In this document: positions 34,796 to 53,187 of the stretch, piece after piece | Numbering within the stretch: position 1 is the first letter of the stretch | How the letters are laid out: each line of letters begins with the position of its first letter | Notes under the pieces: model-generated | Told to the model about the DNA's origin: nothing | The model's database searches: none | What the model saw: only the letters and a program-made list of their open reading frames with translations | Made by a program: the position numbers and the translations under genes | NCBI RefSeq assembly: GCF_007483665.1 | Contig: NZ_ML660185.1 | Location: forward strand, 224,178-288,177 | Source: Catellatospora sichuanensis | GTDB lineage: Bacteria; Actinomycetota; Actinomycetes; Mycobacteriales; Micromonosporaceae | DNA: 64,000 bases | Reading direction: 5' to 3'

Positions 34796-36571
34796 TCAGG
34801 CGTACGCCTTCGCCTGGAGGGTGAACAGGTCGTGGTAGAGGCCGCCGCGGGCCATCAGCTCGTCGTGGCTGCCCAGCTCTGCGATGGAGCCGTCGCGCAG
34901 CACCACGATCAGGTCCGCGGCGCGCACCGTGGAGAACCGGTGCGAGACGAACAGGGTGATCGCACCCGTGCCCCGGGCGGCTCGCCGGGCCGCCGTCGCG
35001 AAGCGGGTGAACAGCGCGTTCTCGGCGTGGGCGTCGAGCGCGGCGGCGGGCTCGTCGAGGGCCAGCAGCAGCGGCCGGGGCCGCATCAGCGACCGGGCGA
35101 GGCCGAGCGACTGCCACTGGCCGCCGGACAGTTCGGTGCCGTCGGCGTACCCCCGGCCGAGCATGCCGTCCAAGCCGCCGGCCTGGTCGACGGCGCGCCC
35201 GGCACGGGCCCGGTGGATCGCGGCCTGCAGCGCCGCGTCGTCGGCGTGGTGGGTGAGCTCGCCGACGCCGACGTTGTCGCGGACCGTCCAGTGCAGCCGG
35301 GCGAAGTCCTGGAACAGCATGGCGATCCGGCGGTGCCACGACTCGGCCGGGATCCGGCGCAGGTCGGTGCCGTCGACGGTGAGCGTGCCGCCGGTGGGGA
35401 GGTACAGCCCGCAGAGCAGCTTGACCAGGGTGCTCTTGCCTGCGCCGTTCTCGCCGACGAGGGCGACGGTGGCGCCGGCGGGCAGGGTCAGGTCGACGTC
35501 GCGCAGCGTCGGCTCGGCCGCGCCGGGGTAGGCGAAGGTGACGCCGTGCAGGCGGATGCCGTGCCGCAGCCGTCGCGGGGCAGCTGAGGTCGCCGGTTCC
35601 GGGGCGGGTGCGGCGGCGGCCAGTTCGGCGAAGCGGCCCGCGGTGCGCGCCGTTGCGGCGACCGTCGCGTGCAGCCCGATCGCCCCCGCCACCTGCACGC
35701 TGATCTGCACGGCGAGCATTACGACCAGGACGACCTCCCCGACGGTCGCGGTGCCGTCCACGGCCCGGCCGAGCACCAGCAGGATCGCCCCGCCGTACGC
35801 GAAAGCGAACAGCAGCTGTCCACACCCGCGCAGCAGCGCGGCCCGCCACTGCGCCGCCCACAGCGTGTCGGTGGTGCGTGCCCACGTCTGCGCCTGCCGG
35901 GCCAGCAGGAAGCCGTCCGCTCCGCACAGCCGGATCTCCTTGACCGCGTCGGCGTCGGCGGCCAGCGCCAGCAGGTGGCTCGACAGCCGTCCGGCCTCGG
36001 CGGTGCGTTCGCGGGCGCGTTCGGTCAGCTTCGCGGCCCGGCGGGCGACCAGCACCGGCGGCACCGCGGCCAGTGGCAGCAGGGCCAGCCACGGGTCGAC
36101 GGTGGCCAGGATGACCGTGGTCACCGCGGCCCGCAGCACCAGCCCGCCCAGGTGCAGCAGTCCTTCCAGGGACTGCCGGGTCTTCGCGGCGTCCTGGGCG
36201 GCGAGCGCCAGCGTATCGGCGAAGCGGGGGTCGTCGAGGTGGGCCAGGTTCGGCTGCCCGTTGGCCAGCGCCAGCAGCCGCCGGTCGAGCACGGTGCCGG
36301 CCTGCTCGCCGACCTCGAAGTAGGACAGGTGCGCGAAGTGCCCGAGCATCAGCTCCGCGACGAGCAGCGCCGCGACGGCGACGGCCAGCGCGGTGGCGGT
36401 CCCGCTCGCACCGGCGAGCGCGGCGTCGGTGAAGTCGCGCAGCAGGAACCCGATGAACGGGGTGGCCAGGTAGCCGCCGGTCAGCAGGCCGACCGCGACG
36501 GTCAGTCTGCGCGGGTCGGCGGCCCAGGCCAGGCCGAGCACGAAGCCGAGCGCGGTGTGCAGTGTCCTCAT
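34796..36571 (-). CDS. ABC exporter half-transporter, second of pair
   Basis: 591 residues: membrane domain with about six spans (MRTLHTALGFVLGLAWAA at the start), then Walker A GENGAGKST, signature LSGGQWQSLGLARSL, Walker B LLLALDEPAAALD and H-loop FVSHRFSTV. It is coupled to the preceding transporter gene by an ATGA overlap, implying a heterodimer. It is divergent from the glycosyltransferase-like gene at 38428. It is the best candidate exporter for the NRPS product, by position only. Confidence 0.92.
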   Translation of the reverse strand: MRTLHTALGFVLGLAWAADPRRLTVAVGLLTGGYLATPFIGFLLRDFTDAALAGASGTATALAVAVAALLVAELMLGHFAHLSYFEVGEQAGTVLDRRLLALANGQPNLAHLDDPRFADTLALAAQDAAKTRQSLEGLLHLGGLVLRAAVTTVILATVDPWLALLPLAAVPPVLVARRAAKLTERARERTAEAGRLSSHLLALAADADAVKEIRLCGADGFLLARQAQTWARTTDTLWAAQWRAALLRGCGQLLFAFAYGGAILLVLGRAVDGTATVGEVVLVVMLAVQISVQVAGAIGLHATVAATARTAGRFAELAAAAPAPEPATSAAPRRLRHGIRLHGVTFAYPGAAEPTLRDVDLTLPAGATVALVGENGAGKSTLVKLLCGLYLPTGGTLTVDGTDLRRIPAESWHRRIAMLFQDFARLHWTVRDNVGVGELTHHADDAALQAAIHRARAGRAVDQAGGLDGMLGRGYADGTELSGGQWQSLGLARSLMRPRPLLLALDEPAAALDAHAENALFTRFATAARRAARGTGAITLFVSHRFSTVRAADLIVVLRDGSIAELGSHDELMARGGLYHDLFTLQAKAYA

Positions 36572-38370
36572 GCGACGGCGGCCACGTCGTCGCGGAACCG
36601 GCCGGCCTGCAACGCGAACATCTCCGCGTAGTGGCCGCCCGCGGCGAGCAGTTCGTCGTGGTCGCCGCGTTCGACGACGTGCCCGTCGGACAGCACCAGG
36701 ATCTGGTCGGCACGCCGCACCGTGGAGAAGCGGTGCGAGATGACGACGCTGGTCAGGCCCTCGGTCTGGGTGAGGAAGCGGTCGAAGAACTCGACCTCGG
36801 CGCGTACGTCGAGCGCGGCGGTGGGCTCGTCGAGCACCAGCAGGCGGGCGCCGCGGTCGACGGCATGCAGGGCGCGGGCCAGCGCGAAACGCTGCCACTG
36901 GCCGCCGGACAGGTCGCGGCCGCCGGTGTAGCGGGCGTGCAGCGGGGTGTCCAGGCCCGCGGGCAGGTCGTCGAGCACTTCCCCCGCCCCGGCGCGTGCC
37001 GCCGCGGCACGCCAGTCGGCAGGGGTGCCCGTGCCCAGGCCGATGTTCTCGCCCGCGGTCAGCTCGTAGCGGTTGAAGTCCTGGAAGATGACGGCGAGGC
37101 GGCGCTGCCACGAGGCCGGATCGAGGCCGCGCAGGTCGAGGCCGTCGACGGTGATCGCGCCGCGGTCGGGGTCGTAGCAGCGGGTGAGCAGCTTCATCAG
37201 GGTGGTCTTGCCGGCCCCGTTGAGCCCGACGACGGCGGTGCAGCGCCCGGCGGGGATGACCAGGTCGAGGTCGGTGAAGACGCGCCGCCCGCCCGGGTAG
37301 GCGAAGCCGACCTGAGTGAACCGGATCTCGCGCTGCGGAGCGGGTGCCGGGGTGGCCCCGGGCAGGGCTTCGCCGCGTACGGCATCCTCGAAGCCGGTCA
37401 GGGCGGCCAGCGCCCGCCCGCCGAACTGGGTCTGCACGTCGGCCTCGGGGAAGTAGACGCCGAAGCGGATCGGCACCAGCACCGCCTGCACCGCGACGGC
37501 GTACCCGAGCAGGTCGAGTTCGCCGCTCGCGGTGGCCTGGGCGACGGCGGTCAGGGCCAGCGCCGCGCCGACGAGTCCGGTCAGGGCGAAGCCGAGGAAC
37601 GGGCGCAGCAGCAGGCGCCGCCGCATGCTCCAGATCGGATCGAGGTAGCTGCGGTGCTCGCTGTCCAGGCGCGCGGTGAGGAAGTCGAGCAGCCCGAGCA
37701 CCCGGATCTCCTTGGCCGCCGCGGTGCCGGTGGTGAGCGTGCGGGTGTACGCCAGGCGGCGGCGCTGCGGGGACAGCGCGTCCCACTCCGCCGCGAAGCG
37801 GCCCAGCGAACCGCGCTGCCCGAACCGGATGACCAGCGCGGTCGCCGCGACGACGAGGCCGGCGAGCGGGGACAGCACCACCGCGATCAGTGCGACCGCT
37901 CCGGCGAGCCCGGTGTAGCGGGCCAGCAGTGCGGGCAGCGCCGCGGCGGCGTCGCCGGGCGACGGGGCGGCCCGGTCGGTCGCGGTGCGCACGTCGGCCA
38001 GCAGGTCCAGCGTGCCGGGGCGCTCCAGGGCCGCCACGGGCGCGTCGGTGAACGCCGCCCGCAGCGCCCGCTGCACGCAGTGCCCGTCGACGCGGCGCGA
38101 GACCAGCTCGGCCAGCGCGGCCTGCAGCGGGCCGAGCAGCTGCTGCGCGACGAGCGCGGCGAGGGTGAGCGCGACGGCGGTGCCGAGGGCGGCTTCGCCG
38201 CGGGCCACCGCGGGCACCCGGGCCAGCAGCACCGCCATGCTCACGATGAAGACGATCGGGGCCAGCCCGAATGCGGCGCTGACGAGCAGGGCGACCGCGA
38301 CCGGCAGGGTTCCCGCTTGGCGCAGCAGACGGGCCAGGTCGAACCATCGCCGCAGTGCGGGCAGCATCAT
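36568..38370 (-). CDS. ABC exporter half-transporter, first of pair
   Basis: 600 residues: six-span membrane domain (long insert around RDVRTATDRAAPSPG-like linkers), Walker A GLNGAGKTT, signature LSGGQWQRFALARAL, Walker B LLVLDEPTAALDVR and H-loop VISHRFSTV, all intact. GGGAGGA precedes ATG 38370. Both partners appear catalytically complete, unlike the pair at 20-24 kb. The gene begins in the AT-rich divergent region shared with the glycosyltransferase-like gene. Confidence 0.92.
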   Translation of the reverse strand: MMLPALRRWFDLARLLRQAGTLPVAVALLVSAAFGLAPIVFIVSMAVLLARVPAVARGEAALGTAVALTLAALVAQQLLGPLQAALAELVSRRVDGHCVQRALRAAFTDAPVAALERPGTLDLLADVRTATDRAAPSPGDAAAALPALLARYTGLAGAVALIAVVLSPLAGLVVAATALVIRFGQRGSLGRFAAEWDALSPQRRRLAYTRTLTTGTAAAKEIRVLGLLDFLTARLDSEHRSYLDPIWSMRRRLLLRPFLGFALTGLVGAALALTAVAQATASGELDLLGYAVAVQAVLVPIRFGVYFPEADVQTQFGGRALAALTGFEDAVRGEALPGATPAPAPQREIRFTQVGFAYPGGRRVFTDLDLVIPAGRCTAVVGLNGAGKTTLMKLLTRCYDPDRGAITVDGLDLRGLDPASWQRRLAVIFQDFNRYELTAGENIGLGTGTPADWRAAAARAGAGEVLDDLPAGLDTPLHARYTGGRDLSGGQWQRFALARALHAVDRGARLLVLDEPTAALDVRAEVEFFDRFLTQTEGLTSVVISHRFSTVRRADQILVLSDGHVVERGDHDELLAAGGHYAEMFALQAGRFRDDVAAVA

Positions 38371-38397
38371 GCCGACGTCCTCCCGACAGCCGCTATC

Positions 38398-38427
38398 ATC
38401 AATAAACTTAACAGTTAACATACTTAA
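38398..38427. promoter_or_regulatory. AT-rich divergent promoter of the exporter and biosynthetic genes
   Basis: A 30-nt AT-rich stretch in an otherwise very GC-rich region. It holds an 11-bp dyad TTAACAGTTAA (38408-38418) and ACTTAA direct repeats. TAACAT (38416-38421) lies 6 nt before ATG 38428, so the rightward gene is probably leaderless. A dyad overlapping the -10 is suited to a cluster repressor or activator. Confidence 0.55.
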
Positions 38428-39528
38428 ATGCACGGGTTGATTTCCGCCGCGGTGACCACGCACCCGCGCCGCCGTCCGGAGGCCGACGCCCTCGCGGCGA
38501 GCCAGCCGGGGCTGGACTTCGAGGTCGTCGAGGATCCCGAACCCGACGGGCCGCGCAGCGCGCTGCGCACCGCGCGGCTGGCCTGGCGGCGAGCCGATCC
38601 CGGCTGCACGCACCGGTTGCTGGTGCAGGACGACATGCGGCTCGCGCCCGGGTTCGCCCGGCTCGTGCGGGCGGCCGTGGCGGCGCAGCCGGACCGGATC
38701 CTGTGCCTGTTCACCGAATGGGGTTCGCGCACCTCGCCGGCGGTGCGGTTGGCCGCGCTGACGGGCGCGGGCTGGGTGCCGCTGCTCGACCCGTACGTGC
38801 CGACGACCGCCGTGGTCCTGCCCACCGCGGTCGCGCATGCCCTCGCCGAGTTCCCGGCCGAGCCGGGCGAGCCCGACGACGTGCTGCTGCTGCGCTTCGC
38901 CCGGAAGCACGGGATGACGCCGCTGGTCAGCAGCCCCAACCTGGCCGAGCACGAGCAGGGCGACTCGCTGATCGGCAACGACGTGCTGCAGGGCCCGCGA
39001 CGGGCGGCGCTGTTCGGCGGCCCGCCCGGTGACTGGGCAGCCGTCCTGGTCCCGCCGATGGTGCCGCACCTGCTGCTGTTCGACGGGGTGGTGGTGTGCC
39101 AGGTGCCGGACGGCGAAGGCTGGCGGGCGGTGCCGGCCGACGAGTTCCTCGCCCTGTCCGGCCTGTCCGTGCCCGACCTGCTGGACGGGTATGCCGCGAC
39201 GGTCGCCGAGTGCGACCCGGCCGGGCGGATGCGCCGGGTGGTCGCGGACTCGTTGCTGTTGCAGCTGTGGCTGGCCGCCTTCTGCTACGGCGTCGCGGCG
39301 TATCAGGTGGTGGGCGACGCCGCGACGGTGGACCGCGCGCTGCGGACCGTGCGTGGCGCGGCCGCGCTGCGCACCCTCGCGCCGGGCGCGCTGCGCCGAT
39401 TCGTGCCCGGCCACCGGCTCGCGGCGCTGTCCACACTGGTGGCTCCGCTGGTGCGGCAGGCCATATCGGACGGATGTGTACACGCTGGTAAGGCGGGAGA
39501 TCACTTCTGGAAAGGATCTTTCCAGTAA
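38428..39528 (+). CDS. glycosyltransferase-like (GT-A) protein
   Basis: 366 residues, no signal. CTHRLLVQDDMRLAPGFARLV near residue 60 resembles the DxD/EDD nucleotide-sugar site of GT-A enzymes, and LPTAVAHALAEFP...DDVLLLRFARKHGMTPLVSSPNL fits the second half of such folds. The last 20 codons (from ISDGCVHAG onward) are AT-richer than the rest and end in a hairpin. It stands beside the exporters and upstream of the condensation-domain gene. A sugar transfer is inferred, with modest confidence. Confidence 0.6.
   Translation: MHGLISAAVTTHPRRRPEADALAASQPGLDFEVVEDPEPDGPRSALRTARLAWRRADPGCTHRLLVQDDMRLAPGFARLVRAAVAAQPDRILCLFTEWGSRTSPAVRLAALTGAGWVPLLDPYVPTTAVVLPTAVAHALAEFPAEPGEPDDVLLLRFARKHGMTPLVSSPNLAEHEQGDSLIGNDVLQGPRRAALFGGPPGDWAAVLVPPMVPHLLLFDGVVVCQVPDGEGWRAVPADEFLALSGLSVPDLLDGYAATVAECDPAGRMRRVVADSLLLQLWLAAFCYGVAAYQVVGDAATVDRALRTVRGAAALRTLAPGALRRFVPGHRLAALSTLVAPLVRQAISDGCVHAGKAGDHFWKGSFQ
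39507..39525 (+). terminator. hairpin at the end of the GT-A-like gene
   Basis: CTGGAAAG GAT CTTTCCAG is a perfect 8-3-8 hairpin overlapping the last codons, followed by the stop TAA at 39526 and an AT-rich stretch to about 39555. It could be a terminator or part of the regulatory island. The 162-nt gap to 39690 contains no gene. Confidence 0.4.
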
Positions 39529-39689
39529 TCGTAAACTGTGCTATCAGTTATATGCCCATGGATGGATGACCTCCGACCGCGGGGCGTTGCTCGCGCCGAC
39601 CCCGGCGCGCCGTGTCACCCGGTTCCACCGCAGACAGGCAGGCGTCGATGGATAACCAAGCACCGCGCGGCGGCGAGGGGGTGGGCTGA

Positions 39690-41003
39690 GTGCAGGTCAT
39701 CCCGCGTCGCGCCACGCCGTCCGGCACCGCGCCGCTGTCCCTGCTGCAGCAGCGGTGGTGGCACCTGTGCACCGCGTACGAGGGCGGCGCATCGCCGATC
39801 GTGGTGATCGCCGACCGCATCACCGCGCCGCTGGACGTGCCCGCGTTCACGGCGGCCGTCAGCGCGCTCGCCGACCGGCACGACGCCCTGCGCACCACGT
39901 TCGCCGTCGGCCCCGACGGGCCGCGGCAGGTGATCGCACCACCCGGCGGCCTGGTGACGGAGCTGCTCGACGTGTCCGGGGAGGCCGACCCGCCCGGCCG
40001 GGCACGGGAGCTGGTCGCGGAACTGGCCAGGGCGCTGCTCGACCTGGCCGGCGGCAGGCTGGTGCGCTCCCGGCTGATCCGCCTCGGCCCGGCCGACCAC
40101 GTCTGGTGCCTGGCGGTGCACCACATCCTGGTCGACGGCGAGTCGGCCATGATCCTGCAACGCGAGGCCGTGGCGCTCTACCGGGGCGAGCCGCTGCCCG
40201 AGCCGTTCATCGGGTATGCCGACTTCGCCGCCTGGCAGTGCGCCGACACCACCGGAGACGTAGATCTGGCCTGGTGGACCGAGCGGCTGCGCGGCGTGCC
40301 GCCGCTGGAGCTGCCCACCGACCTGCCCCGGCCGCCGGCCAAGACGCTCCGCGGCGGCCAGGTCGACGTGCACGTCGCCGCGCCGGTCGCGGACGCGCTG
40401 GACCGCTTCGCCCGGCAGCGGCGGGCCACGCCGTACATGGTGCTGGCCACCGCCCTGCTGGTGGTGCTCGCGCGGCGCTCCGGGCAGACCGATCTGTGCG
40501 TGGGCATGCCGGTGTCCGGCCGCCTGCTGGAGGAGACCGAGCGCACGGTGGGCCTGTTCGCCAACACGATCGCGCTGCGGGTCGACCTGTCCGGCGATCC
40601 GGATCTCGGCGAGCTGCTGGGCCGGGTCCGCGCCGCGACGATCGACGGGCTGGCCCGGCAGGCGGTGCCGTTCGGGCAGGTCGTCGCCGCGGTCGACCCG
40701 GACGCCGACCGCTCCCGCACCCCGGTCTTCCAGGTGACGGCGGCGCTGCATACGCATACCGCCGCCGGGCCGGTCGATCCGCACTGGCGGCCGTTCGCCC
40801 AGAGCGCCCCGCAGATCCTGCACGACCTGGGGGTGGATGCCTGGCGCGAGCCCGACGGCCTGGAGCTGACGCTGCGCTACGACACCGGGCTGTTCACCGC
40901 GGACACCGCCGCCGCGCTGGCCGACGAGATCGTCGCGGTGCTGCGGGACCTGGCCGAGGGTGCGACGCCGGCAGTGTTCGCGGTGGCGGCACGGCATGGG
41001 TAG
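39690..41003 (+). CDS. free-standing condensation-domain (PapA-like) enzyme
   Basis: 437 residues forming one condensation-type domain: LSLLQQRWWHLCTAYEG (C1), RHDALRTTF (C2), HHILVDGES at residues 144-152 (the HHxxxDG active-site motif), and ETERTVGLFANTIALRVDL (C5). No adenylation or carrier domain is attached. Free-standing members include PapA-type enzymes that acylate sugars or alcohols. Here it overlaps by 8 nt a GT1 glycosyltransferase, so transfer of an acyl or peptidyl group onto a glycoside is a plausible role. Confidence 0.85.
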   Translation: MQVIPRRATPSGTAPLSLLQQRWWHLCTAYEGGASPIVVIADRITAPLDVPAFTAAVSALADRHDALRTTFAVGPDGPRQVIAPPGGLVTELLDVSGEADPPGRARELVAELARALLDLAGGRLVRSRLIRLGPADHVWCLAVHHILVDGESAMILQREAVALYRGEPLPEPFIGYADFAAWQCADTTGDVDLAWWTERLRGVPPLELPTDLPRPPAKTLRGGQVDVHVAAPVADALDRFARQRRATPYMVLATALLVVLARRSGQTDLCVGMPVSGRLLEETERTVGLFANTIALRVDLSGDPDLGELLGRVRAATIDGLARQAVPFGQVVAAVDPDADRSRTPVFQVTAALHTHTAAGPVDPHWRPFAQSAPQILHDLGVDAWREPDGLELTLRYDTGLFTADTAAALADEIVAVLRDLAEGATPAVFAVAARHG

Positions 41004-42231
41004 CCACGTCGCGTTCTTCAACATCCCGGCGCTGGGGCACCTGTTCCCGACCCTGGGCGTGGTCGCCGAGCTGGTGCGGCGCGGGCACCGGGTCAGTTAT
41101 GCGGCGACCGCCGACCGGGCCGCGTACGTGGCCGCGGCCGGGGCGCGGGTGATCCCGTACACCTCGACCCGCCCGGGTGACACCGATCCGGAACCGCGCA
41201 CCCCCGCCCGCGCCGAGCACATCGGACGCAGCCTGCTCAACTTCCTGGCCGAGACCGAGCACACCCTGCCGCAGCTGGAGCCGGCCCTGCTGGCCGACCC
41301 GCCGGACCTGGTGCTGTTCGACCGGATGGCGTTCGCCGGACACGTGTTCGCGCACACCCACGACATTCCCGCGATCCAGCTGTGGCCGATGATCGTTTCG
41401 GCGGGGCCGTGGTCGCTGAACGAGGCGGTCCCGGTCGATTTCGGGCATCCGACGCTGGCCGAGTACACCCTGCGCCTGGAGCGTTTCCTGACCGGGCGCG
41501 GGCTGACCGGGCTGACCACGGATGGCTTCCTCACCCCGCGGGTGGTGCGCCACCTGGCCTTCCTGCCGCGGGCGTTCCAGTACGCGGGCCCGGCCTTCGG
41601 CGACGAGTTCGCCTTCGTCGGGCCGTGCACGACCCCGCGCGCCGGTGATGTGCCCTGGTCGCCGCCTGCCGACGGCGCGCCGGTGGCGCTGGTGTCGCAG
41701 GGCACGCTCAACAACCACTGGCCGGACTTCTACCGCCTGGTGTTCGAGGCGTTCGCGGACACGCCCTGGCACGTGGTGCTGGCCGTGGGCCGCCGCCTCG
41801 ACCCGGCCGCCCTGGGTGCGCCGCCGCGCAACGTCCAGGTCATGCCGGTGGTGCCGCAGCTGGCGGTGCTGGCGCACGCGCGGGTGTTCGTCTCGCACGG
41901 CGGGCTGGGCGGCGTCATGGAGTCCGTGCAGGCCGGCGTCCCGCACGTGGCCGTGGCCCGCACGCTGGAGCAGGACCTCAACGCCGCCCGCATCGTCGAC
42001 ACCGGGCTGGGCGCGTCGCTGGCCCTGGAGGGGCTGACCCCGGCGCGGCTGCGCGACACGGTGCACCGGGTCGCCGAGGACCCCCGCATCGCGGCGGGCG
42101 TCGCCGCGATGCGGGCCGAGGTGCTGGCCGCGGGTGGTCCGGCGCGCGCCGCCGATCTCATCGAATCGTGCCTGCGGGAGCCCGCCCAGCGCGGCGCCGC
42201 AGGCGTGCGGACCCTGGCCCCTCAGGGATAG
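40996..42231 (+). CDS. GT1 (MGT family) glycosyltransferase
   Basis: 411 residues with a GT-B fold: an N-terminal acceptor domain opening GSHVAFFNIPALGHLFPTLGVVAELV (glycine-rich loop with the catalytic His), and a C-terminal donor domain with VSHGGLGGVMESVQAGVPHV, the MGT/UGT donor-sugar signature. MGT enzymes glycosylate macrolides, glycopeptides and lipopeptides. Its translation is coupled to the condensation-domain gene (8-nt overlap). It is followed by a strong terminator. Sugar and acceptor are unknown. Confidence 0.92.
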   Translation: MGSHVAFFNIPALGHLFPTLGVVAELVRRGHRVSYAATADRAAYVAAAGARVIPYTSTRPGDTDPEPRTPARAEHIGRSLLNFLAETEHTLPQLEPALLADPPDLVLFDRMAFAGHVFAHTHDIPAIQLWPMIVSAGPWSLNEAVPVDFGHPTLAEYTLRLERFLTGRGLTGLTTDGFLTPRVVRHLAFLPRAFQYAGPAFGDEFAFVGPCTTPRAGDVPWSPPADGAPVALVSQGTLNNHWPDFYRLVFEAFADTPWHVVLAVGRRLDPAALGAPPRNVQVMPVVPQLAVLAHARVFVSHGGLGGVMESVQAGVPHVAVARTLEQDLNAARIVDTGLGASLALEGLTPARLRDTVHRVAEDPRIAAGVAAMRAEVLAAGGPARAADLIESCLREPAQRGAAGVRTLAPQG

Positions 42232-42233
42232 GC

Positions 42234-42267
42234 AGCGGGCCGCCCGGCGCCCCCCGGGCGGCCCGCT
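42234..42267 (+). terminator. strong GC terminator after the glycosyltransferase
   Basis: AGCGGGCCGCCCGG (42234-42247) pairs perfectly with CCGGGCGGCCCGCT (42254-42267), 6-nt loop, 2 nt after the stop codon. It separates the C-domain/GT1 transcript from the esterase/NRPS transcript. Confidence 0.8.
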
Positions 42268-42296
42268 ACCTCTGCTCCGGCAGATGCCATCGATAG

Positions 42297-42437
42297 ATGG
42301 GCCGGTTTAAATCAACCGAACCGCCAGCCGTGATCGCAGTTATGTACCTAAGAAACTTAACTATTTATTGGCATCGTGGTCGCGTCGGCGGGGAAAGCCC
42401 GCCACATCCCCCTCGGGAATCGATGGAGGTTCCACTA
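42297..42437 (+). promoter_or_regulatory. AT-rich leader of the esterase-NRPS operon
   Basis: After the terminator a stretch around 42297-42375 is distinctly AT-rich compared with flanking genes. It contains CAGTTAT (42337-42343), AAACTTAAC (42353-42361), TATTTATTG and GGTTTAAAT. AAACTTAAC also occurs in the 38.4-kb island, and CAGTTA in all three islands. It is inferred to be the promoter and possibly operator of the esterase-NRPS operon. Confidence 0.5.
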
Positions 42438-43742
42438 GTGATCACAGTTTCGACGGCACGCGGCGACTCGCCCGGCACGCGTCGGCGCGCCGGGACGAGC
42501 CGGGTGCCGAGGCGTGTCACCGCCGGCCTCGCGGCCCTCGGCCTGCTCGCGACCACCTTGGTCGCCGCGGCCGGCCCGGCCTCCGGCGGTCTGCCCGCGC
42601 GCTGGGTGGGGACCTGGGGGACCGCACTCACCGCGCCGAGCCTGGCCAACACCGGCAGCTCGCTCAACGGCTTCACCGACCAGTCGATCCGCCAGCTGGT
42701 GCGGGTCTCCCTCGGCGGGGAGAAGGTCCGGCTGCGGATCACCAACGCGTACGGCACCGGCCCGCTGACCATCGGCCACGCCAGCGTCGGCCTGCCGGTC
42801 TCGCCCGGCTCGCCGCAGCTGCAGCCCGGCAGCATCCGTGAGATCACCTTCAACGGCAGCGAGACCGCCGTCGTCTACAAGGGAGCGGAGCTGCTGACCG
42901 ACCCGATCGACCTGCCGGTGTCGGCGACCGCGGAACTCGCGGTGACCCTCTACCTGCCGACCGCGACCGGGGCCACCTCCTGGCACTGGACCGCCCGCCA
43001 GACCTCCTACGTCTACGCCGGCGACAAGGCCGAGGACCTGACCGGCGCCGGGCAGACCGCCGCCTACAACCACTTCTACTACCTGGCCGGGATCGAGGTG
43101 CTCACCAAGACCGGCGCGGGCACGGTGGTCGTGCTCGGCGACTCCATCAGCGACGGGTCGGGCTCCACGCTCGGCGCGAACACCCGCTGGCCCGACTACC
43201 TCGCCACCCGGGTCACCGGCACCTGGCCGGCGCTGGGCGACCCCGGCGTGCTCAACGTGAGCCTCGCCGGCAACCAGGTCACCAAGGACGGCCTGGCCAT
43301 CAACTCCCCGGCCCTGGGTGACAGCGCCCTGGCCCGCCTGGACGACGACGTGTTCAGCCAGCCCGGTGTACGCACCGTCATCGTCGAACTCGGCATCAAC
43401 GACGTCCACCTGTCCGGCTTCCCGGCCGACCAGATCATCGGCGGGCTGCGCCAGCTGGCGATCCAGGCCAAGGACCGCGGGGTGCGCGTCGTGGCGGCCA
43501 CGCTCGGCCCGTTCGAGGGCTACTCGACGTGGACCGCGGACAAGGAGGCCGTACGCCAGGCGGTCAACACCTGGCTGCGGGGCAGCAACGAGTTCGACGC
43601 GCTGCTCGACTTCGACCAGATCCTGCGGGACCCGGCCGCGCCGAGCAAGGTGCTGCCCGCGTACGACAGCGGCGACCACATCCACCCGAACGACGCAGGC
43701 GCGCAGGCCCTCGCCGCGGCCGTGCCGCTCTGGCTGCTGTGA
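42438..43742 (+). CDS. secreted SGNH/GDSL hydrolase
   Basis: 434 residues: basic N-terminus, hydrophobic signal segment (VTAGLAALGLLATTLVAAAGPASGG), an N-terminal domain starting WVGTWGTALTAPSL typical of actinobacterial secreted SGNH esterases, then the catalytic domain with GDSISDGSG (nucleophile Ser), a Gly and Asn in block II-III (GNQVT, LGINDVHLS) and GDHIHPNDAG (Asp-His). GGAGG is 8 nt before GTG 42438. It is 4 nt upstream of the NRPS gene. It could remove an ester or release and trim the product outside the cell; that link is positional. Confidence 0.9.
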   Translation: MITVSTARGDSPGTRRRAGTSRVPRRVTAGLAALGLLATTLVAAAGPASGGLPARWVGTWGTALTAPSLANTGSSLNGFTDQSIRQLVRVSLGGEKVRLRITNAYGTGPLTIGHASVGLPVSPGSPQLQPGSIREITFNGSETAVVYKGAELLTDPIDLPVSATAELAVTLYLPTATGATSWHWTARQTSYVYAGDKAEDLTGAGQTAAYNHFYYLAGIEVLTKTGAGTVVVLGDSISDGSGSTLGANTRWPDYLATRVTGTWPALGDPGVLNVSLAGNQVTKDGLAINSPALGDSALARLDDDVFSQPGVRTVIVELGINDVHLSGFPADQIIGGLRQLAIQAKDRGVRVVAATLGPFEGYSTWTADKEAVRQAVNTWLRGSNEFDALLDFDQILRDPAAPSKVLPAYDSGDHIHPNDAGAQALAAAVPLWLL

Positions 43743-43746
43743 CCCG

Positions 43747-46700
43747 ATGACGCCCCGCACCCTCCCCGAGCTGCTGGCCGCCCTCGCGGCGGCGCGACCG
43801 CAACACGTCGCGCTACGCCTGGCCGGCGGGGAGGGCGCGGGGCCCACCGATCTGACCGCGGCGGCGTGGCACCGCCGCGCCGTGGCCGTCGGGCACGGCC
43901 TGCTGGGCAAGGGCGTCGCGCCCGGCGACCGGGTGGGTCTGGTGTTCGACGGCACGGACTGGCTCGACTACGCGGTCGCGTACGCGGCGGTCACCGGGAT
44001 CGGCGCGGTCGCCGTGCCGTTGTCGGCGGCGTCGCCCGAGGCCCGGCTGCGGGAGCTGCTCGACCACGCCGGGGCGCGCTGCGTCGTCGGCGCGCGCGGC
44101 TGGTCGCCGTCCGAGCTGGACAACGGCGACCCGTCGCCGCAGCCGGTCGCCGTCCTGCCCGGACAGACCGCGCAGATCGTCTACACGTCCGGCACCACCG
44201 GCACGCCCAAGGGTGTGGCGGCGAGCCATGCCAGCCTCACCCACGGCCTCGACCCGGCGCGGCCGCCGCTGGCGCACTCGCGGCACGCGCTGCACGCGTT
44301 CCCGCTCGGCACCAACGCCGCGCAGACGATGCTGGTAACCGCGCTGATCGCGCGCCCCACCGTGGTCACCGTCCCGGCCTTCGACCCCTGGGCGTACGCC
44401 CGCACCGCGCAGATCCTGCGCGCCGGCACCCTGTTCCTGGTGCCCGCGATGGCGAGCGCGCTGCTGGAGGCGGGCGTGTTCGAGCAGTGCGACCTCGACG
44501 CGGTGCAGCTGGTGTCGTGCACCGCTGCGGCCCTGCCGCCCGCCGTGGCCAGGGCGCTGGCAGCGGTGCTGCCGGAGGCCGTGATCGTCAACAACTACAC
44601 GTCGACCGAGGCCGCGCCCGCGCATACCAGCATGGTCTTCGATCCTGACCGGCCCGGCTCGGTCGGCCGTGCGGAGGGCGGGGCCGAGCTGCGCATCCTC
44701 ACCGCCGACGGAACCGTCGCCGGACCGGGGGAGACCGGAGAGGTCTGGCTGCGCGCGGGGGACGCGGTGCGGGCGTACCACGGCGACCCCGAAACGAGCG
44801 CGGCCGTGTTCCGCGACGGCTGGGTGCGCATGGGCGACCTCGGCTACCGCGACGCCGACGGCTACCTCTTCCTGGTCGACCGCGAGTCCGATCTGGTCAA
44901 CGCGGGTGCGCACCGGGTCTCCACGCTGCGGGTCGAGGCGGCGCTGCACGAGCACCCGGCCGTGCTCGGCGCGGCCGTGCTCGGCCTGCCGCACCCGGTG
45001 CTGGGTGCGACGGTCGCCGCCGCCGTCGAGCTGCGCGACCCGTCCGCGCTGGCCGGGTTGCGTGCCTTCCTCACCGACCGGCTCGCGGCTTACGAACTGC
45101 CGACCCGGATCGTCGCCGTGGCAGCCCTTCCCCGCAACGACGGCGGCAAGGTGCGCAAGTCCGCGCTGCGGGAGCTGTTCGCGCAGGCCCCGGCCCGCGT
45201 GATGCCCCGCACCGCGGCTGAGATCGCGCTGGCCGGGCTGTGGCGCGAGGTGCTGCGGGTGCCGGAGGTCGGTGTCGGCGACGACTTCTTCGCCCTCGGC
45301 GGCGACTCGATGCGCGCCACTCGCCTGGCCGCTCTCGTCACCGCCTGCTTCGGCAGGGAGGCGCCGGTCTCCCTGATCTTCGAGATGCCGCTGCTCGCCG
45401 CCCAGGCCGAATGGCTCTCGGCAGAGCCGGTCGCCGCGGGCGACGATCGCGGTTTCGGGTCGGAAGGTGAGGCCGGACCGCAGGTTCCGCCACGAGACGG
45501 CGATCACGGCGGACCGGTCAGGCTTGGTGGGCTGGGCGATGACCGCGGTTTCGGGTCGGAAAGTGAGGCTGGAGCGCAGGTTTCGCCACGAGACGGCGAT
45601 CATCGCGGGCCGGGCCAGGGCGGCGGGCAGGGTGAGCGCCGGGAGGATGGGGCGGCGGGCCGGGAGATGCCGTTGGCGTCTACTCAGGAGAGCATGTTGG
45701 CCTGGATGTGGGCGACGGGGGAGCCGCGCGACGTCGGGCCGATCAGCGTCGGCATCAGGGTGCGGGATGAGCTCGATCCGCAACTGCTGCACCGGGCGCT
45801 GACCGTGGTGGCGGACCGGCACGAGGCGCTGCGCACCGTGTTCGACCGGGATCCGGCCGGGCGGCACCGGGCCCGGGTGCTCGACCACTGCCCGCCGGTG
45901 GTGACCGCCCTCGCGGCCCGCGACCTCGACCATGCCGGGCAACTGTGCCGCGCCGACCGGGAAGGCGGCTTCGACACGGCCCGCGGGCCGCTGGTGCGGG
46001 CGATGGTCGCCACCGTCGGCCCCGACGACCACGTGCTCGGGCTGGCCGTGCACCACCTGGTCTGCGACGGCGCGTCGATGGGACCGCTGCTGCACGAGGT
46101 AGGCGTCGCGTACGCGGCGCTGCGCCGCGGCACCCCGCTGCCCGCCGCCGCACCGGGCACGCCGCTGCGCGACTTCGTCACGTACACCCGGCAGCGCTGG
46201 CAGGTCACCCTGCCGCACTGGCGGCGGGTGCTCGACGGCGCGCCCGCTCACCTGGCGCCGTTCCGCGGTCGCCGGGAGGCGGTCCGGCTGCGCAGCGCCG
46301 CGCTCGAGTTCCCGCTGCCCGGCACGCTCGGAGACGGGTTGCGCCGGGCCGCCGCGGCCCAGGGCGCGACCCCGTTCATGCTGATCGCGTCGTGCTGGGC
46401 GGCAGCGCTGTCGGAACGCACCGGCACCGACGACATCGTGCTGATGTCCCCGGTGCCCGGCCGCACCCGGCCCGGCAGCGAGGCGCTGATCGGCTGCCTG
46501 AGCCAGTCGCTGCTGCTGCGCGTGGACACCTCCGGCGGCCCGTCCGCCGCCGAACTGCTGGCCCGGACCCGGCGCACCGTCCTGGACGCGCTGGACCACC
46601 AGCACCATCCGTTCGTCGAGTGCTACCTGCGGCACACCGGCGCGGCCTGGCTGCGGGTGGAGACCTGGGGCGGCCAGGCACACCTGCCGGGACTGGAGTC

Positions 46701-46947
46701 GGAGCCGTTCGAGCTGCCCCGGGCACTCGACGCGGACTGGCCCACGCCCGGGGGCCTGCCCGACCTTCAGGCACCCGAGCTCGCCGTCGTCGAGCATCCG
46801 AACGGTTCGCTGGTCGCGCACCTGCTCTGGAACCACCACGCCTTCGACCGGTCCGAGATGGACGTCTTCGCCGGGCGGGTCGTCGAACTGTTCGAGCACG
46901 CGGCGCGCGAGCTCGCCCCCGTACCACCGCAGGAGGTTTTGCGATGA
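43747..46947 (+). CDS. NRPS, A-T-C (acyl/aryl-AMP-ligase-like loading module)
   Basis: 1066 residues. The adenylation domain (about 1-490) has SGTTGTPKG near residue 148, YTSTE near 283, [20 protein letters not shown] near 365 and GGKVRK near 470; its motifs are closer to acyl/aryl-acid ligases than to amino-acid domains. The carrier site GGDSMRA has its Ser at residue 521. A linker of two 32-residue tandem repeats (about 566-629) precedes a condensation domain with HHLVCDGAS at 769-777. The next gene begins in an ATGA overlap. Probably starts the assembly line with a carboxylic acid. Confidence 0.92.
45442..45604. repeat. two tandem 67-bp palindromic units inserted in the NRPS gene
   Basis: Units at 45442-45508 and 45538-45604 recur with a 96-bp period (32 codons), so the reading frame is kept. 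The ends of a unit are imperfect inverted repeats (GATGACCGCGGTTTCG versus the complement of the far end, 13 of 16 matching), as in small palindromic mobile elements. They encode only the interdomain linker and so were tolerated. Confidence 0.75.
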
Positions 46948-49900
46948 GCACCGCCACCCCGGCCCAGCACGGCATGTGGCTGACCGAGCGCCTCGGCCTG
47001 GCCGCCACGGCGTACCACATGCCGCTGCCGGTATGGCTGGACGGCCCGCTCGACCCGGCCCGGCTGGCGGACGCGTGCGCGGCGGCCGTTGCCCGGCATC
47101 CGGTACTGTCGTGCGCGTTCACCGAGACCGACGGGGAGCTGCTGCTGACACCGGCGGCCTGCACGCCGTCGCTGGTCGTGGGCACGGCCCCAGGCGATCT
47201 GGCGGTGTTCGTCCGGGAGCGCACGGTCGCGCCGTTCGATCTGGCCGCGGGACCGCTGATCCGGTTCGACCTGGTGGCGGCCGGGCCGGAGCGGCACCTG
47301 CTGCTGATCGTCGCGCACCACCTGGTGTTCGACGGCGAGTCCAAGGAGATCCTGCTCGCCGACCTCGCGGCGGCCTACTCCGCATCGGACGGTGCGCAGC
47401 CGACGGCGGCAGAGGTCGGCTCGAATGCGCTCGTCGCCGGGGCGACACCGCCACCGACCGCGGAGAACCCCGCGCCGAGCCGGAGCGAGGAGTCCGCCCG
47501 CGTTGCCGCGCTGCTGCCGGAGGCTGTCGCGCACTGGGCGGGGGCGTATCGCGCTCCGGGTGAGCCCAGCCTGCCGGGGCTGCGGGCGATCACCCCGGCC
47601 GGGGCGCGGCCGGGTGTGGTGGTGTCGCTGGATCTGGCTGCCGTGCCGGTCCGGGCGGCCGCGGCGGAAATGGATGCGACGACGTTCGAGGTGGTGCTCG
47701 CGGGGCTGCTCACGCTGCTCGACCGGTATGGCGACCCGCACCCCACGGTCGGCGTCGACCTCGGCACCCGCCCGTCCGACGCGCACGACCGTGTCGGGCT
47801 GTACGTCAACGAGCTGCCCGTCGGCGTGCCCGCGACCGACCCGGTCGACCCGGTCACCGTGCGGGAACGCGTCGCGGCGGTGCGGCGCGGGCTGCGGGAG
47901 ACGTACCCGCTGCGCGCCGTACCCCTGTCCCGGGCCGTGTCCGGCCTGGCCCCGCGAGCCGCGCTCACCCCGGTGTCGATCAGCTACCGCCGCCGGGTCC
48001 GGCCCACGCCGGTGTTCGCCGGTCTCGACGTCCGGGTCCAGTGGACGGCGTACCACCACGCCGCCCGCAACGCCCTGCACGTCCAGCTGCTCGACGACCC
48101 CGCCGGGCCGACCCTGCCGGTCCTGCTGCACGTCGACCCGGCCCGCCTGGACCCCGCCGGCGCCGCCCGGATCGGCACGCACCTGCGTACGCTGCTCGAC
48201 GGCTTCGTCCGCCACCCGGACGCGCACCTGCGCGACCTCGACATACTCGATCCGTCCGAACACGAGCTGCTCGCCGCCTGGAACGCCACCGGAAGGTCCG
48301 TTCCCGGCCCGCAGACGCTGCACGAGGTCGTCGATGCGCAGATCGCCGCGCGCCCCGACGCCATCGCGGTGTTCGCCGCCGACAGCGCGATGACCTACGC
48401 CCAGCTCGACGCCGAGGCCGCCGCGGTGACGGCACGGCTGCGTGAGCGTGGCATCGGCCCCGGCGATCTCGTCGCGGTGTGCCTGCCCCGGACCTCGCGG
48501 CTGCTGCCCGCGCTGCTCGGCGTGCTGCGCACCGGTGCGGCATACCTGCCGCTGGATCCGGAACACCCCGAAGCCCGACGCGACGGCCTGCTCGCCGACG
48601 CGCGCCCGGCCGCGGTGCTGACGGCCGACGGCGATGGGGTGACCGTGCTGGGCGAGGCCGAGGCCGGGGCGGTCGCCGGCCCAGCCGCGCCAATGCGCGA
48701 ACCCGGGCTCTGCTACGTGATCTACACGTCCGGTTCGACCGGTCGGCCCAAGGGCGTGGCCGTGGAGCACCGCGGGGTGGTCAACCTGTTGCACGCGCTG
48801 CCCGAGGTGGTGCCGACCGGGCCGGGTGACGTGTGGCTGGCCGTGGCGTCGGCGGCGTTCGACATGTCGGTGCCGGAGCTGTGGCTGCCCCTGGCCACCG
48901 GCGGCACGGTCGTGCTGGCCACCGCCGAGCAGGCGCGCGACGGCGAGCTGCTGCTGAAACTGCTGCGCCTGACCGGGGTCACCCACGCCCACCTGACCCC
49001 GTCGACGTGGCGGCGGCTGGTCGACGCCGGTTTCGCCGAGCGCGGGGTGGTCGCGGTGTGCGGGGCGGAGGCGCTGCCCGGCCCACTCGCCGCCGAGCTG
49101 CGCTCGCGTACGAAGCGGCTGGTCAACCTGTACGGCCCGACCGAGACGACGGTGTGGTCGACGGCCGCGGACCTCACCGCGGACGGCCCGGTGACCATCG
49201 GCCGCCCGCTGGCCAACACGACGGCGTACGTGCTGGACGCGGCGCTGCGCCCAGTGCCGCACGGCGTCGTGGGGGAGCTGTGCCTGGGCGGGGCCGGGGT
49301 CGCCCGCGGTTACCTGGGCCGCCCCGAGCTGACCGCAGCGCGCTTCGTGGACACGGCCTGGGGGCGGCTCTACCGCACCGGTGACCGGGTGTGCCGGCTG
49401 CCCGACGGGTCGCTGGAGTTCCACGGGCGGGCCGACGACCAGCTGAAGGTGCGCGGCCACCGGATCGAGCCGGGGGAGGTGGAGGCGCACCTGCGGGCGG
49501 CGGAGTCGGTCGTGGACGCGGCGGTGACCGCGTCGGCGGACGGTGCGGCGCTGGTGGCGTACGTCGTCGGCACGCCCGATCCGGCCCGCTTGCGCGAGCA
49601 ACTGGCGGCGGCGCTGCCCGCATACCTGGTGCCGTCGGCGTTCATGCTGGTGGAGCAGCTGCCGCGCAACGCCAACGGCAAGCTCGACCGGGCCGCGCTG
49701 GCCGGGCTGGCGGGTACGCCGCTGGTGCCGCGGGCGTCGCCGCGGCCCTACACAGGGCTGGCGCTGCAGGTGTACGAGATCTGGCGCGAAGTGCTCGGGC
49801 ACGGGGAGATCGGACCCGACGACGACCTGTTCGACCTCGGGGGGCACTCGCTCACGGTTACGAAGATCGCGGCCCGGTTGCGCCGTCGGCTCGGCGTCGA

Positions 49901-49967
49901 CCTGCCACTGCACGTCTTCTTCGACACCCCCACCATCAACGGCATCGTCGCCGCCGCGGACCGGTGA
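46944..49967 (+). CDS. NRPS, C-A-T module
   Basis: 1007 residues. An N-terminal condensation domain (about 1-430) has HHLVFDGES at 125-133. The amino-acid-type adenylation domain has [11 protein letters not shown] near 594, [12 protein letters not shown] (A4, with the Asp that binds the amino group), [11 protein letters not shown] (A5), [18 protein letters not shown] (A8) and NANGKLDR (A10). The carrier reads [10 protein letters not shown] with Ser near 969, and the protein ends about 38 residues later. No thioesterase, epimerase or reductase follows. AGGAGG precedes ATG 46944, which overlaps the previous stop. Substrate prediction needs a structural code comparison. Confidence 0.94.
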
Positions 49968-49997: not shown

Positions 49998-50507
49998 ATG
50001 ACGCCGCCCGTTCGCTATCGTCTGGTGGTGCCTGTGCTCTTCTTGACGTGTGGTCTGCAGGGAAGTGGCAAGACAACGCTCGCGAGGCGGCTGGAGCAGG
50101 AGCATGCCGCGTTGCGGCTCACTGCGGATGAGTGGCTCCGTCAGCTGCATCCGGAACTGTCCGAGCCGGAGCTCGATTTTCACCGGGACTCTGTAGAACA
50201 CCTGCAGTGGGCGACTGCCTTGCGCGTCTTGCAGCTGGGCTGCAATGTCGTGCTGGATTGGGGTTTGTGGGCGAGGGAGGAGCGTGATCGCTACCGCTCG
50301 GAGGCCCAGGCGATCGGAGCGCGTGTGGTGCTGTGCCTGCTGGAACCATCCCGACAGGAGATACTCGATCGGTTGGAGCGCCGTAACGCTTCGCCGCCGC
50401 CGGGCGTGTTTCGGATTACGAGGGAAGAGCACGATCAGGCGTGGGACTTCTTCCAACGCGAGCGTCCGACGCGTGCTGAGCTCGATCTGTTCGACCCCGT
50501 GCCGTGA
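49998..50507 (+). CDS. small P-loop kinase (AAA/zeta-toxin-like)
   Basis: A 169-residue P-loop protein: FLTCGLQGSGKTTLARRLE (Walker A), RLTADEWLRQLHPE (acidic acceptor loop), VVLDWGLWAREERD, and the LID-like REEHDQAWDFFQ. It resembles zeta-toxin, chloramphenicol phosphotransferase or gluconate-kinase-like small-molecule kinases; the substrate is unknown. Its codon usage is visibly less GC-rich than both neighbours. It lies 30 nt after the NRPS stop, between that stop and a second copy of the NRPS 3' end (50611-50648), so it may be an insertion. The start could be a GTG near 50025. Confidence 0.75.
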   Translation: MTPPVRYRLVVPVLFLTCGLQGSGKTTLARRLEQEHAALRLTADEWLRQLHPELSEPELDFHRDSVEHLQWATALRVLQLGCNVVLDWGLWAREERDRYRSEAQAIGARVVLCLLEPSRQEILDRLERRNASPPPGVFRITREEHDQAWDFFQRERPTRAELDLFDPVP

Positions 50508-50651: not shown

Positions 50652-51398
50652 TCAGGTGCAGTAGGTGCCGTCCCACGGTGGCGAGAACATGATGTCCATC
50701 GGGTAGAAGCCGACCCGGGGCATGCCGTGCTCCGCCGTCTGGTCGACCAGCTCCCAGGTGACGTCACCCTCCTGCACCGAGAACGTGCGAATGGCGATGT
50801 CGCCGTACGCGGTGTTGGGTAGGCCGGCGATCAGCTGCTCCCGCAGCTCGTGCGCGTCGTCCAGTACGTCGTTGTGGATCCGGGAGCTCACGTACGTCCC
50901 GGTGTGGTCGAACAGGAACAGCGCCACACCGATGGCGCCGGGCGCGTTGTGGCGGGTGCCGGTGATCAGCGCGAGGAACTGGCCGTCGGCGTACCGGCCG
51001 AGCCGGTCGGTGCGCATCGAGTCCGGGTGGTACTCGATCCGGATCAGTGCGGGCGGCGTGTCCGGCTCCGGCGGCGGCGCAGCCGACCGCCAGTCGCACG
51101 CGCCACGCCAGCCGCCACGGCCGAGGTTCCATGCCAGCATCGCCTCGAACGCGGCGTCGAACGCGACCGGGTGGGCCAGCTCGGCCGGGGTGTCCTGCCC
51201 CTCCTGGGCGAGCAGCCGGTAGCCGTCCGGCAGTCGCCACGCCTGGATGAAGTCGTCGTCGTTCCCGTCGCGCACCAGCGCCACCGAGCCGCTGCCCGGC
51301 AGGTCGCTGAGCTGGTCGAGCAGCACCCACAACAGCCCGCCCGAGGGTTGCTCGTGCGTGCCGTCGCGGTGGTAGAGGGTGATGCGCGGACTGCTCAA
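50652..51398 (-). CDS. hypothetical protein
   Basis: A 248-residue soluble protein. There is no signal or membrane span. Notable pieces are LLWVLLDQLSDLPGSGSVALVRDG, WNLGRGGWRGACDWRSA and IGVALFLFDHTGTYVSSRI. I do not recognise the family. It starts at TTG 51398 with GGAAGGA 5 nt upstream, which supports that rare start. It is in the same direction as the nucleotidyltransferase gene upstream. Confidence 0.7.
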   Translation of the reverse strand: MSSPRITLYHRDGTHEQPSGGLLWVLLDQLSDLPGSGSVALVRDGNDDDFIQAWRLPDGYRLLAQEGQDTPAELAHPVAFDAAFEAMLAWNLGRGGWRGACDWRSAAPPPEPDTPPALIRIEYHPDSMRTDRLGRYADGQFLALITGTRHNAPGAIGVALFLFDHTGTYVSSRIHNDVLDDAHELREQLIAGLPNTAYGDIAIRTFSVQEGDVTWELVDQTAEHGMPRVGFYPMDIMFSPPWDGTYCT

Positions 51399-51460
51399 CA
51401 GGGTCCTTCCGATAGTCGTGGCCGTCGCAGGATAGGCGCGCGGGACGGGGCGCGTGAGCC

Positions 51461-51557
51461 CGCCGCGTCGCGGCGACGGGCCTGGGGTCCGGTATCAGCG
51501 CGCCGCGTCGTCGCGGCGACAGATCTCGGGTTCCGGCTCAGCGCGCCGCGTCGTCGA
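51461..51557. repeat. imperfect tandem repeats over a gene 3' end
   Basis: About 42-bp units beginning CGCCGCGTCG recur from 51461, 51501 and 51545, so the last codons and stop of the nucleotidyltransferase (RLDDAAR-stop) are copied just downstream. Slippage or illegitimate duplication is likely. Nothing else is encoded in 51399-51537. Confidence 0.6.
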
Positions 51558-52290
51558 GGCGGTGCAGGACGTACCGGAGGAAGGCCCGCGCCGCGGTGGC
51601 GTCGGGGGCGAGGCCGGTCCGGCCCCGGCCGTGACCGGCGACGGCCGTGGTGATGAGCGGGCCGAACTCGGGCACGGCGGCGGCTGCCGCACGGCCGGCC
51701 TCCGGTTTGGAGACCCATCGGCGAGTGGTGCGCCAGTGCAGCGCACGGCAGGCGTTGAGCACGGCGTCGTCGCGCACCTCGGGGCCGTCGTTCGCGGCGA
51801 CCGACGCGGCGACGACGGGCTGCAGCAGCGGGTGCGGCAGTCGCGGGGCGAGCGTGGCGAACGGCGGCCCGGTCAGCGTACGGTCCTGCTGGGCGGTGAT
51901 GTCGCGGTCGATGGGATACCAGAAACCGGGCCGCCCCTGTGGCCCGAACTCGGCCAGCGGGGTCAGCTCGCGGCCGGTGTTGAGGTTGAGGGCGAAGCCG
52001 TCCTGGGTGGTCAGTTCGGCCAGTTCGGCCCGGTCGTAGAGCACGAACTCCAGCCCGGCCGCCGGGCAGGGCAGCGCCTCGTGGCTCAGCGCGGCGGCCA
52101 CGGCGGTCACGTCGGCGGCGGTGAGGCGCTCGCCGACGGCGATCAGGTCGAGGTCGCTACGGCCGGGCCGGTAGCCGTCGAGGGCGACGGACCCGGTGGG
52201 GTACACCCCGGTGAGCCGCTCGCCGAGCAGCTCACGCAACCGGCCGGTGACCGCGTGCAGGTAGGTCGTCTCGGCGTCGGGCAGGGTCAT
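51538..52290 (-). CDS. ANT-like aminoglycoside nucleotidyltransferase family
   Basis: 250 residues: the nucleotidyltransferase motif TGSVALDGYRPGRSDLDLIAV (GS-x9-DxD) at residues 30-50, then a helical C-terminal domain of the DUF4111 type with NACRALHWRTTRRWVSKPEAG near 180, as in AadA-like adenylyltransferases. Such proteins modify aminoglycosides, but many chromosomal members have unknown substrates. ATG 52290 was chosen; GTG 52293 is adjacent. Confidence 0.85.
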   Translation of the reverse strand: MTLPDAETTYLHAVTGRLRELLGERLTGVYPTGSVALDGYRPGRSDLDLIAVGERLTAADVTAVAAALSHEALPCPAAGLEFVLYDRAELAELTTQDGFALNLNTGRELTPLAEFGPQGRPGFWYPIDRDITAQQDRTLTGPPFATLAPRLPHPLLQPVVAASVAANDGPEVRDDAVLNACRALHWRTTRRWVSKPEAGRAAAAAVPEFGPLITTAVAGHGRGRTGLAPDATAARAFLRYVLHRLDDAAR

Positions 52291-52315
52291 CACCTCACGA
52301 TCGCACGTCGGGCCC

Positions 52316-52353
52316 GGCGGGTCCCGTCCCCGCGCTGATGGACGGGACCCGCC
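52316..52353 (-). terminator. intrinsic terminator of the lipoprotein gene
   Basis: GGCGGGTCCCGTCC (52316-52329) pairs perfectly with GGACGGGACCCGCC (52340-52353), 10-nt loop, 9 nt after the stop of the minus-strand gene ending at 52363. Confidence 0.75.
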
Positions 52354-52362
52354 GGTTCGCGA

Positions 52363-53010: not shown

Positions 53011-53141
53011 GGGGTGGTCCTTCTGCGGCAGTGGGATACGGCGTGGGCCACTGCACGATAGGGGCGGCCAAGCGGCACCGGCGACGCGTCGTCGCCAGAA
53101 CGACAGCAGCAGGCCGCGCCGCGGCCGCCCGCGGATCGATG

Positions 53142-53187
53142 GGAAGGGCACCTTCTACATCGCAAAGCGATAAGAAGGTGCCCTTCC
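53142..53187. repeat. palindromic intergenic repeat, copy 2
   Basis: Arms GGAAGGGCACCTTCT (53142-53156) and complement (53173-53187) with inner stem ATCGC/GCGAT around AAA. Compared with copy 1 (13549-13594) the arms are identical, while the inner stem changes G-C to C-G on both sides (a compensatory change). It lies between divergent genes, so it cannot serve only as a terminator. Confidence 0.88.

Follow-up and report, generated by a model that had tools for sequence, protein, structure and literature searches.

The 64,000-nucleotide stretch analysed here (the window; Catellatospora sichuanensis, contig NZ_ML660185.1, positions 224,178–288,177) carries a compact nonribosomal peptide synthetase (NRPS) and glycosyltransferase locus at 34796–49967. 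Eight genes were identified, two of which encode ATP-binding cassette (ABC) exporter proteins and point away from the six biosynthetic genes. In the order of their own strand, the latter encode a GT-A-like protein, a free-standing condensation (C) domain, a GT1 glycosyltransferase, a GDSL/SGNH hydrolase, and two NRPS proteins in which adenylation (A), thiolation (T) and C domains are arranged as A-T-C and C-A-T. The locus is bounded by two stop codons, of an exporter gene at 34796 and of the C-A-T gene at 49967. With the start codons chosen, the free C and GT1 genes overlap, as do the A-T-C and C-A-T genes, and the GDSL and A-T-C genes are spaced by 4 bases; gaps of 161 and 191 bases precede the free C and the GDSL gene, respectively. 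Domains were called by searching the list of open reading frames (ORFs) with Pfam and NCBIfam profiles, and the A-T-C, C-A-T, free C, GT1 and GDSL assignments of an earlier note on this DNA were all recovered in place.

The A-T-C protein (1066 residues, 43747–46947, plus strand) matched the AMP-binding, PP-binding and Condensation profiles with E-values of 1.5e-47, 1.3e-10 and 2.9e-44, and the C-A-T protein (1007 residues, 46944–49967, plus strand) matched Condensation, AMP-binding and PP-binding at 3.5e-32, 2.9e-77 and 7.5e-18, all above the profile cut-offs. The catalytic motifs are present, with LGGDS (A-T-C) and GGHS (C-A-T) in the carriers and HHxxxDG in the condensation domains (HHLVCDG in A-T-C). 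When scored against TIGR01733, the first A domain reached 151.3 bits, below the amino-acid cut-off of 317.4, whereas the second reached 401.3 bits. Among NCBIfam profiles, a long-chain acyl-CoA ligase model fits the first A domain best, though again with a score under the cut-off. Moreover, an Asn is found in its PxGTNAAQ stretch in 13/13 clusters of this type, at the position where amino-acid A domains carry Asp. The first A domain is thus likely of the acyl- or aryl-acid type, with a fatty or aryl acid as substrate, and the second is, judged by profile score, an amino-acid A domain. The pocket of the latter, read by eye, gave no confident substrate prediction. The small product expected in the earlier note is supported by the presence of two A domains, the first at 151 against 317 bits and with Asn for Asp. 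The stretch that links T and C in the A-T-C protein is encoded in part by a 96-base unit repeated 1.8 times (45438–45613, 88% matches); as 96 is a multiple of three, the reading frame is kept.

The assembly line ends in the T domain of C-A-T. Among 20 ORFs between 26.2 and 54.7 kb, Pfam searches revealed no thioesterase or reductase domain; the frames of exporter 1 and of a flanking lipoprotein lie outside this set and were searched with NCBIfam only. Genome-wide, 16 matches to the thioesterase family PF00975 (E ≤ 0.001) were obtained, none of them on the contig of the window (C5), while reductases were not sought at this scale. The reported lack of a release domain is borne out to this extent. 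The free-standing condensation-type enzyme (39690–41003, plus strand, GTG start) was likewise correctly recognised: it matches PF00668 with an E-value of 4.6e-68 and has an intact HHILVDG motif.

The GT1 glycosyltransferase of the earlier note (40996–42231, plus strand) belongs to the MGT family, with 349.8 bits to TIGR01426 over a cut-off of 260. The GDSL/SGNH hydrolase (439 residues, 42423–43742, plus strand) exceeds the cut-off of PF13472 (2.8e-22); its GDS, GIND and DHIH blocks were found and a Gly block was seen by eye only. The hydrophobic N-terminus resembles a signal peptide by eye, and export is probable. Hence, of the "secreted esterase" of the earlier note, the GDSL hydrolase is confirmed and secretion relies on this by-eye reading of the N-terminus. 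The ester-forming role suggested for it is not supported: as the protein has the look of an exported SGNH hydrolase, we infer that extracellular hydrolysis is likelier than ester formation.

For comparison, the genome of the window (G000), ten other Catellatospora genomes (G001–G010) and genomes of three other Micromonosporaceae genera (G085, G086 and G340) were examined; clusters of the window type are denoted type I and a paralogous Catellatospora cluster type II. An A-T-C counterpart exists in 11/11 Catellatospora genomes, the window's included, and the gene set has the same order in all ten others. The whole block is contiguous in seven of these (G002, G004 and G006–G010) and split across two contigs at the GDSL gene in G001, G003 and G005. 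In G001 no cluster GDSL copy was found, the best among the matches listed being 48% identical. Within the genus, cluster proteins are about 67–96% identical to those of the window. Outside the genus, G085 has all genes, and G340 has the block with no ABC pair within the stretch examined; both carry an additional cytochrome P450 gene. The recurrence in 10/10 other genomes of the genus argues against a chance neighbourhood. Grouping the genes as one cluster, an inference in the earlier note, is supported by the conserved order in the genus and G085, by largely matching C-domain trees and by a paralogous cluster with the same domain kinds. The locus is best read as a small assembly line that is self-contained and has been passed on mainly by vertical descent.

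The P450 gene (PF00067, 1.6e-32) lies between the GT-A-like and free C genes in G007, G008, G009, G085 and G340. The other eight Catellatospora genomes show a gap of less than 200 bases at this site, which in the window corresponds to the 161 bases at 39529–39689 (plus strand). In these eight, the best P450 match elsewhere is at most 56% identical, and G007 has a similar 57% match besides its cluster copy. On the C-domain tree described below, the simplest account would be a single loss in the common ancestor of these eight genomes. A match of 22.7 bits to the P450 start in the gap is suggestive only of a remnant, given that 200 plain shuffles had their 95% level at 19.2 and their maximum at 23.1 bits. 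As GT1 stays where the P450 is gone, it is independent of that P450 there.

The HHxxxDG motif is intact at each of the three C positions in 13/13 genomes (11 Catellatospora, G085 and G340), so that all three C domains seem to be used. In a tree of 72 C-domain rows, for which the program warned of long branches (above all the rows from locus L036, see below), the 14 A-T-C rows and the 20 C-A-T rows each form one clade. A third clade, with support of 100/96, holds 26 of the 32 rows labelled as free C by best match; it comprises type I, type II and four rows of other loci (L097, L102, L104 and L108). The remaining six represent C domains elsewhere. The order of genomes is largely alike in the three C trees, with G340 and G085 outside, followed by G007–G009, G001 with G006, and the rest; in the A-T-C clade G340 and G085 swap places with weak support.

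Based on the domain content, the following pathway is proposed. The A domain of A-T-C would activate a non-amino-acid carboxylic acid (fatty or aryl) and load its own carrier, the A domain of C-A-T would activate one amino acid, and a C domain would join the two. With a carrier as its last domain and no thioesterase, the line most likely depends on the free C domain for release, the acceptor of the N-acyl-aminoacyl chain being a small amine or alcohol in solution. GT1 would attach a sugar to the product, and the GT-A-like protein perhaps a second glycosyl group. Export would fall to the ABC pair, and the SGNH hydrolase would act on the exported compound. The order of these reactions, the release by free C, the timing of glycosylation and the role of the hydrolase are as we infer them. 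Taken as a whole (one amino acid joined to an acyl or aryl acid, transferred by free C to a small nucleophile, glycosylated by GT1 and exported), we regard the case for this pathway as evenly balanced.

Several observations weigh against it. The free C domain is nearest to ordinary C domains, its closest solved chains being Txo2 (2.8e-54) and Txo1; 4znm, which we take to be SgcC5, is more distant (2.2e-30). The three C domains all seem active, yet there are two carriers, and one C domain is left without an assigned reaction. Among the ORFs scanned, no acceptor, precursor or sugar-biosynthesis genes were recognised. The locus of G086 has GDSL, A-T-C and C-A-T genes but showed no adjacent match to GT1 or free C. 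Furthermore, the free C of G003 (L117 5392–6699, G003:C47) is 74% identical to that of the window, versus 91% for GT1 and 89% for the GT-A-like protein, as if that gene alone had been exchanged. In G007 the cluster copy is 68% identical to that of the window and a lone second copy 91%. These odd copies indicate that, in some cases at least, the free C gene has undergone exchange or duplication. The lone copy of G007 (L103 10936–12246, G007:C1) is located between a major facilitator superfamily transporter gene and an APH-like gene, with no other cluster gene nearby except weak ABC matches.

The resemblance of free C to ordinary C domains also fits a hydrolytic release, in which a thioesterase encoded elsewhere liberates a free N-acyl amino acid and free C instead joins the acyl group to the amino acid or carries out a second acylation. 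The PF00975 thioesterases on other contigs of the genome could serve this purpose. Conversely, a free C from one clade is kept with the type I line in 13/13 genomes (on a separate contig in G001, G003 and G005), though not in the partial G086 locus, and we consider hydrolytic release unlikely.

The type II cluster is present in eight of the 11 Catellatospora genomes (G001–G006, G008 and G010). An acyl-type A protein, C-A-T, free C and GT1 follow one another in this order in all eight loci examined. Identities to the window proteins are 52–53% for the A protein (59% in one partial stretch), 46–48% for C-A-T, 44–47% for free C and 51–53% for GT1. No type II cluster was recognised in the window's genome, G007 or G009; these three have one further A match each at 1e-100, either in L036 or in an unexamined locus, where C domains are encoded close by in frames some 2,065 residues long. 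Of the type II-like loci, six are on the ORF list; three of these (L100, L101 and L110, Pfam-checked in L110) encode a carrier protein of 79–87 residues before free C. A second separate C-like protein occurs in six loci (L096, L098, L099, L101, L105 and L110), none of which keeps HHxxxDG, and L110 encodes a sulfotransferase-like protein. Type II-related loci outside the genus were found in G085 (L098, without GT1, and L099), G086 (L100) and G340 (L101, without GT1).

Six of the eight type II loci (L096, L110, L111, L112, L114 and L115) have a GDSL copy that is 83–87% identical to that of the window, unlike their NRPS parts at only about 44–53%. In G003 a GDSL fragment lies at the end of a contig (L118), and in L119 and L120 the gene is absent from the stretch examined. 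In the GDSL tree, type II copies are interspersed with the type I copies of Catellatospora, and starred branches force at least two changes of the type II label; the two copies of G006 hardly differ (branches 0 and 0.0056). This pattern points to transfer or gene conversion of the GDSL gene between type I and type II clusters. Such repeats may be the cause of the three assembly breaks at the GDSL gene. The genome of the window has a further P450-GDSL pair (L116 5197–9708, G000:C11), 48% and 47% identical to the cluster types and located beside an acyl-ligase-like gene; at the edge of L116 a GT1 relative starts (53% over 114 residues). Judged by coordinates, a pair of this kind occurs in all 11 Catellatospora genomes, G085 and G340.

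The association of GT1, exporter pair and hydrolase in type I loci and in six of eight type II loci, together with the nesting and near-identity of the type II hydrolase, is reminiscent of oleandomycin self-protection, where OleI glycosylates the antibiotic inside the cell, an exporter removes it and OleR cleaves off the group outside. The best solved relative of GT1 is an oleandomycin glycosyltransferase (2iya, 9.6e-80); CalG4 and Kcn28 (6j31, 6.4e-68) are also among its solved relatives. By analogy, GT1 might serve mainly for self-protection by glycosylating an active compound intracellularly, with export of the inactive form by the ABC pair and its activation outside the cell through removal of a group by the SGNH hydrolase. 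However, GT1 scores far below the OleI self-immunity and macrolide-inactivating models (NF000362 and NF033129; 265.2 and 272.4 bits versus a cut-off of 700). An SGNH esterase is, moreover, not expected to cut a glycosidic bond, so that the analogy needs an ester-linked group. What is shared with the oleandomycin loop is an MGT-type glycosyltransferase, an exporter and an exported hydrolase, which is here of the SGNH type and would act on an NRPS product. We therefore hold self-protection to be doubtful. A broader variant, in which types I and II are chemically distinct parallel pathways whose products, released by a dedicated free C clade, leave the cell as glycosylated precursors and are matured by a shared kind of exported SGNH hydrolase kept alike through gene conversion, appears rather improbable. 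If true, it would represent an NRPS version of the glycosyl-prodrug loop with an esterase as activator.

That the locus is a starter unit handing over to another NRPS, e.g. on contig C7, is very improbable: a related A-T-C and C-A-T pair does occur in a larger NRPS locus of this genome (L036, G000:C7:352000–371999; A domain 51–54% and C-A-T 44% identical to the window), but L036 has its own starter pair and type I has its own glycosyltransferase, exporter and hydrolase and recurs as a block. The condensation domain of the L036 A-T-C protein has lost the first His of its motif.

Precedents exist for the release step of the proposed free C pathway. In glidonin biosynthesis a C domain releases the chain onto a small amine at the chain end (PMC10587159). 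The addition of a small amine by a C domain would be the shared feature; the glidonin C domain is part of a module, whereas that of the window is a separate protein. Free-standing C domains are described in the reports on OaaC, which has a noncanonical motif and is near starter C domains (PMC13142362), and on SgcC5, which makes esters and amides (PMC10212144). Like these, the stand-alone C domain of the window could transfer an acyl group from a carrier to an acceptor in solution. In contrast to OaaC, its HHxxxDG motif is canonical and its nearest solved chains are Txo C domains. For GT1, a precedent is Kcn28, an MGT-type enzyme that glycosylates an NRPS product (PMC6510318). Like the pathway predicted for the P450-bearing relatives, the kitacinnamycin system has an NRPS product with an acyl part and tailoring by a P450 (Kcn27) and a glycosyltransferase (Kcn28), and the catalytic-base His proposed for Kcn28 in that text may match the His of GHLFP in GT1 (by eye). 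By the same source, kitacinnamycins are macrocyclic peptides, whereas only two A domains are found here and GT1 is kept in eight P450-less species.

NRPS clusters that combine a glycosyltransferase with a stand-alone C domain are known. This particular family was not found in the titles and abstract openings listed, mostly outside subscription papers. A thioesterase-less cluster of about 15 kb and eight genes, present in all 11 genomes examined from a little-studied genus, provides a tractable target. Natural variants with and without P450 exist, as does a paralogue with domains on separate proteins, and the small protein set allows a test of the free C release and of the role of the exported hydrolase. 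Even if the chemistry turns out to be ordinary, it is an orphan cluster of Catellatospora whose product is worth seeking. Overall, the observation made in the earlier note is confirmed and its interpretation partly supported: one cluster and a small product are supported, an ester-forming role of the GDSL protein is not.

The GT-A-like putative glycosyltransferase (366 residues, 38428–39528, plus strand) has a QDDM motif and a helical C-terminal part, and no Pfam or NCBIfam match was obtained. Its structural model is of low confidence (predicted local distance difference test score 59.9) and resembles nucleotidyltransferase and GT-A folds only weakly. With five candidates scored per genome, relatives were found in 48 of 354 family genomes, mostly distant. 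Sixteen such loci outside the block were scanned (L065, L066 and L068–L081); in six of them (L068 and L070–L074) a related ABC pair is close by, and matches to free C or C-A-T were absent from all 16. The GT-A-like protein plus exporter may thus be a separable unit. Acyl-ligase-like matches of 29–38% were seen in L071 and L073.

Both exporter genes are on the minus strand, so that the "divergent exporter pair" noted before has a common orientation and diverges from the biosynthetic genes only. Half-transporter 1 (600 residues, 36568–38370, alternative start 38421) has an NCBIfam MsbA_rel match below cut-off (8e-60) and an orthologue beside the GT-A-like gene in relatives. Its gene overlaps the start of that of half-transporter 2 (591 residues, 34796–36571), which matches ABC_tran (3.2e-29) and ABC_membrane (2.7e-4, below cut-off) on the enclosing ORF, as well as NCBIfam exporter models. 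In Catellatospora relatives, too, the block is flanked by the lipoprotein and GNAT genes (left side) and by the minus-strand genes (right side). As they had no match in the stretches of G085, where the block is complete, the borders were placed at 34796 and 49967. A small AAA_33/zeta-like kinase gene (49998–50507) directly follows C-A-T, with no match listed in the relatives' loci. Past it, at 50652–53154, three minus-strand genes of no clear family, one of them weakly AadA-like, recur in relatives within the genus.

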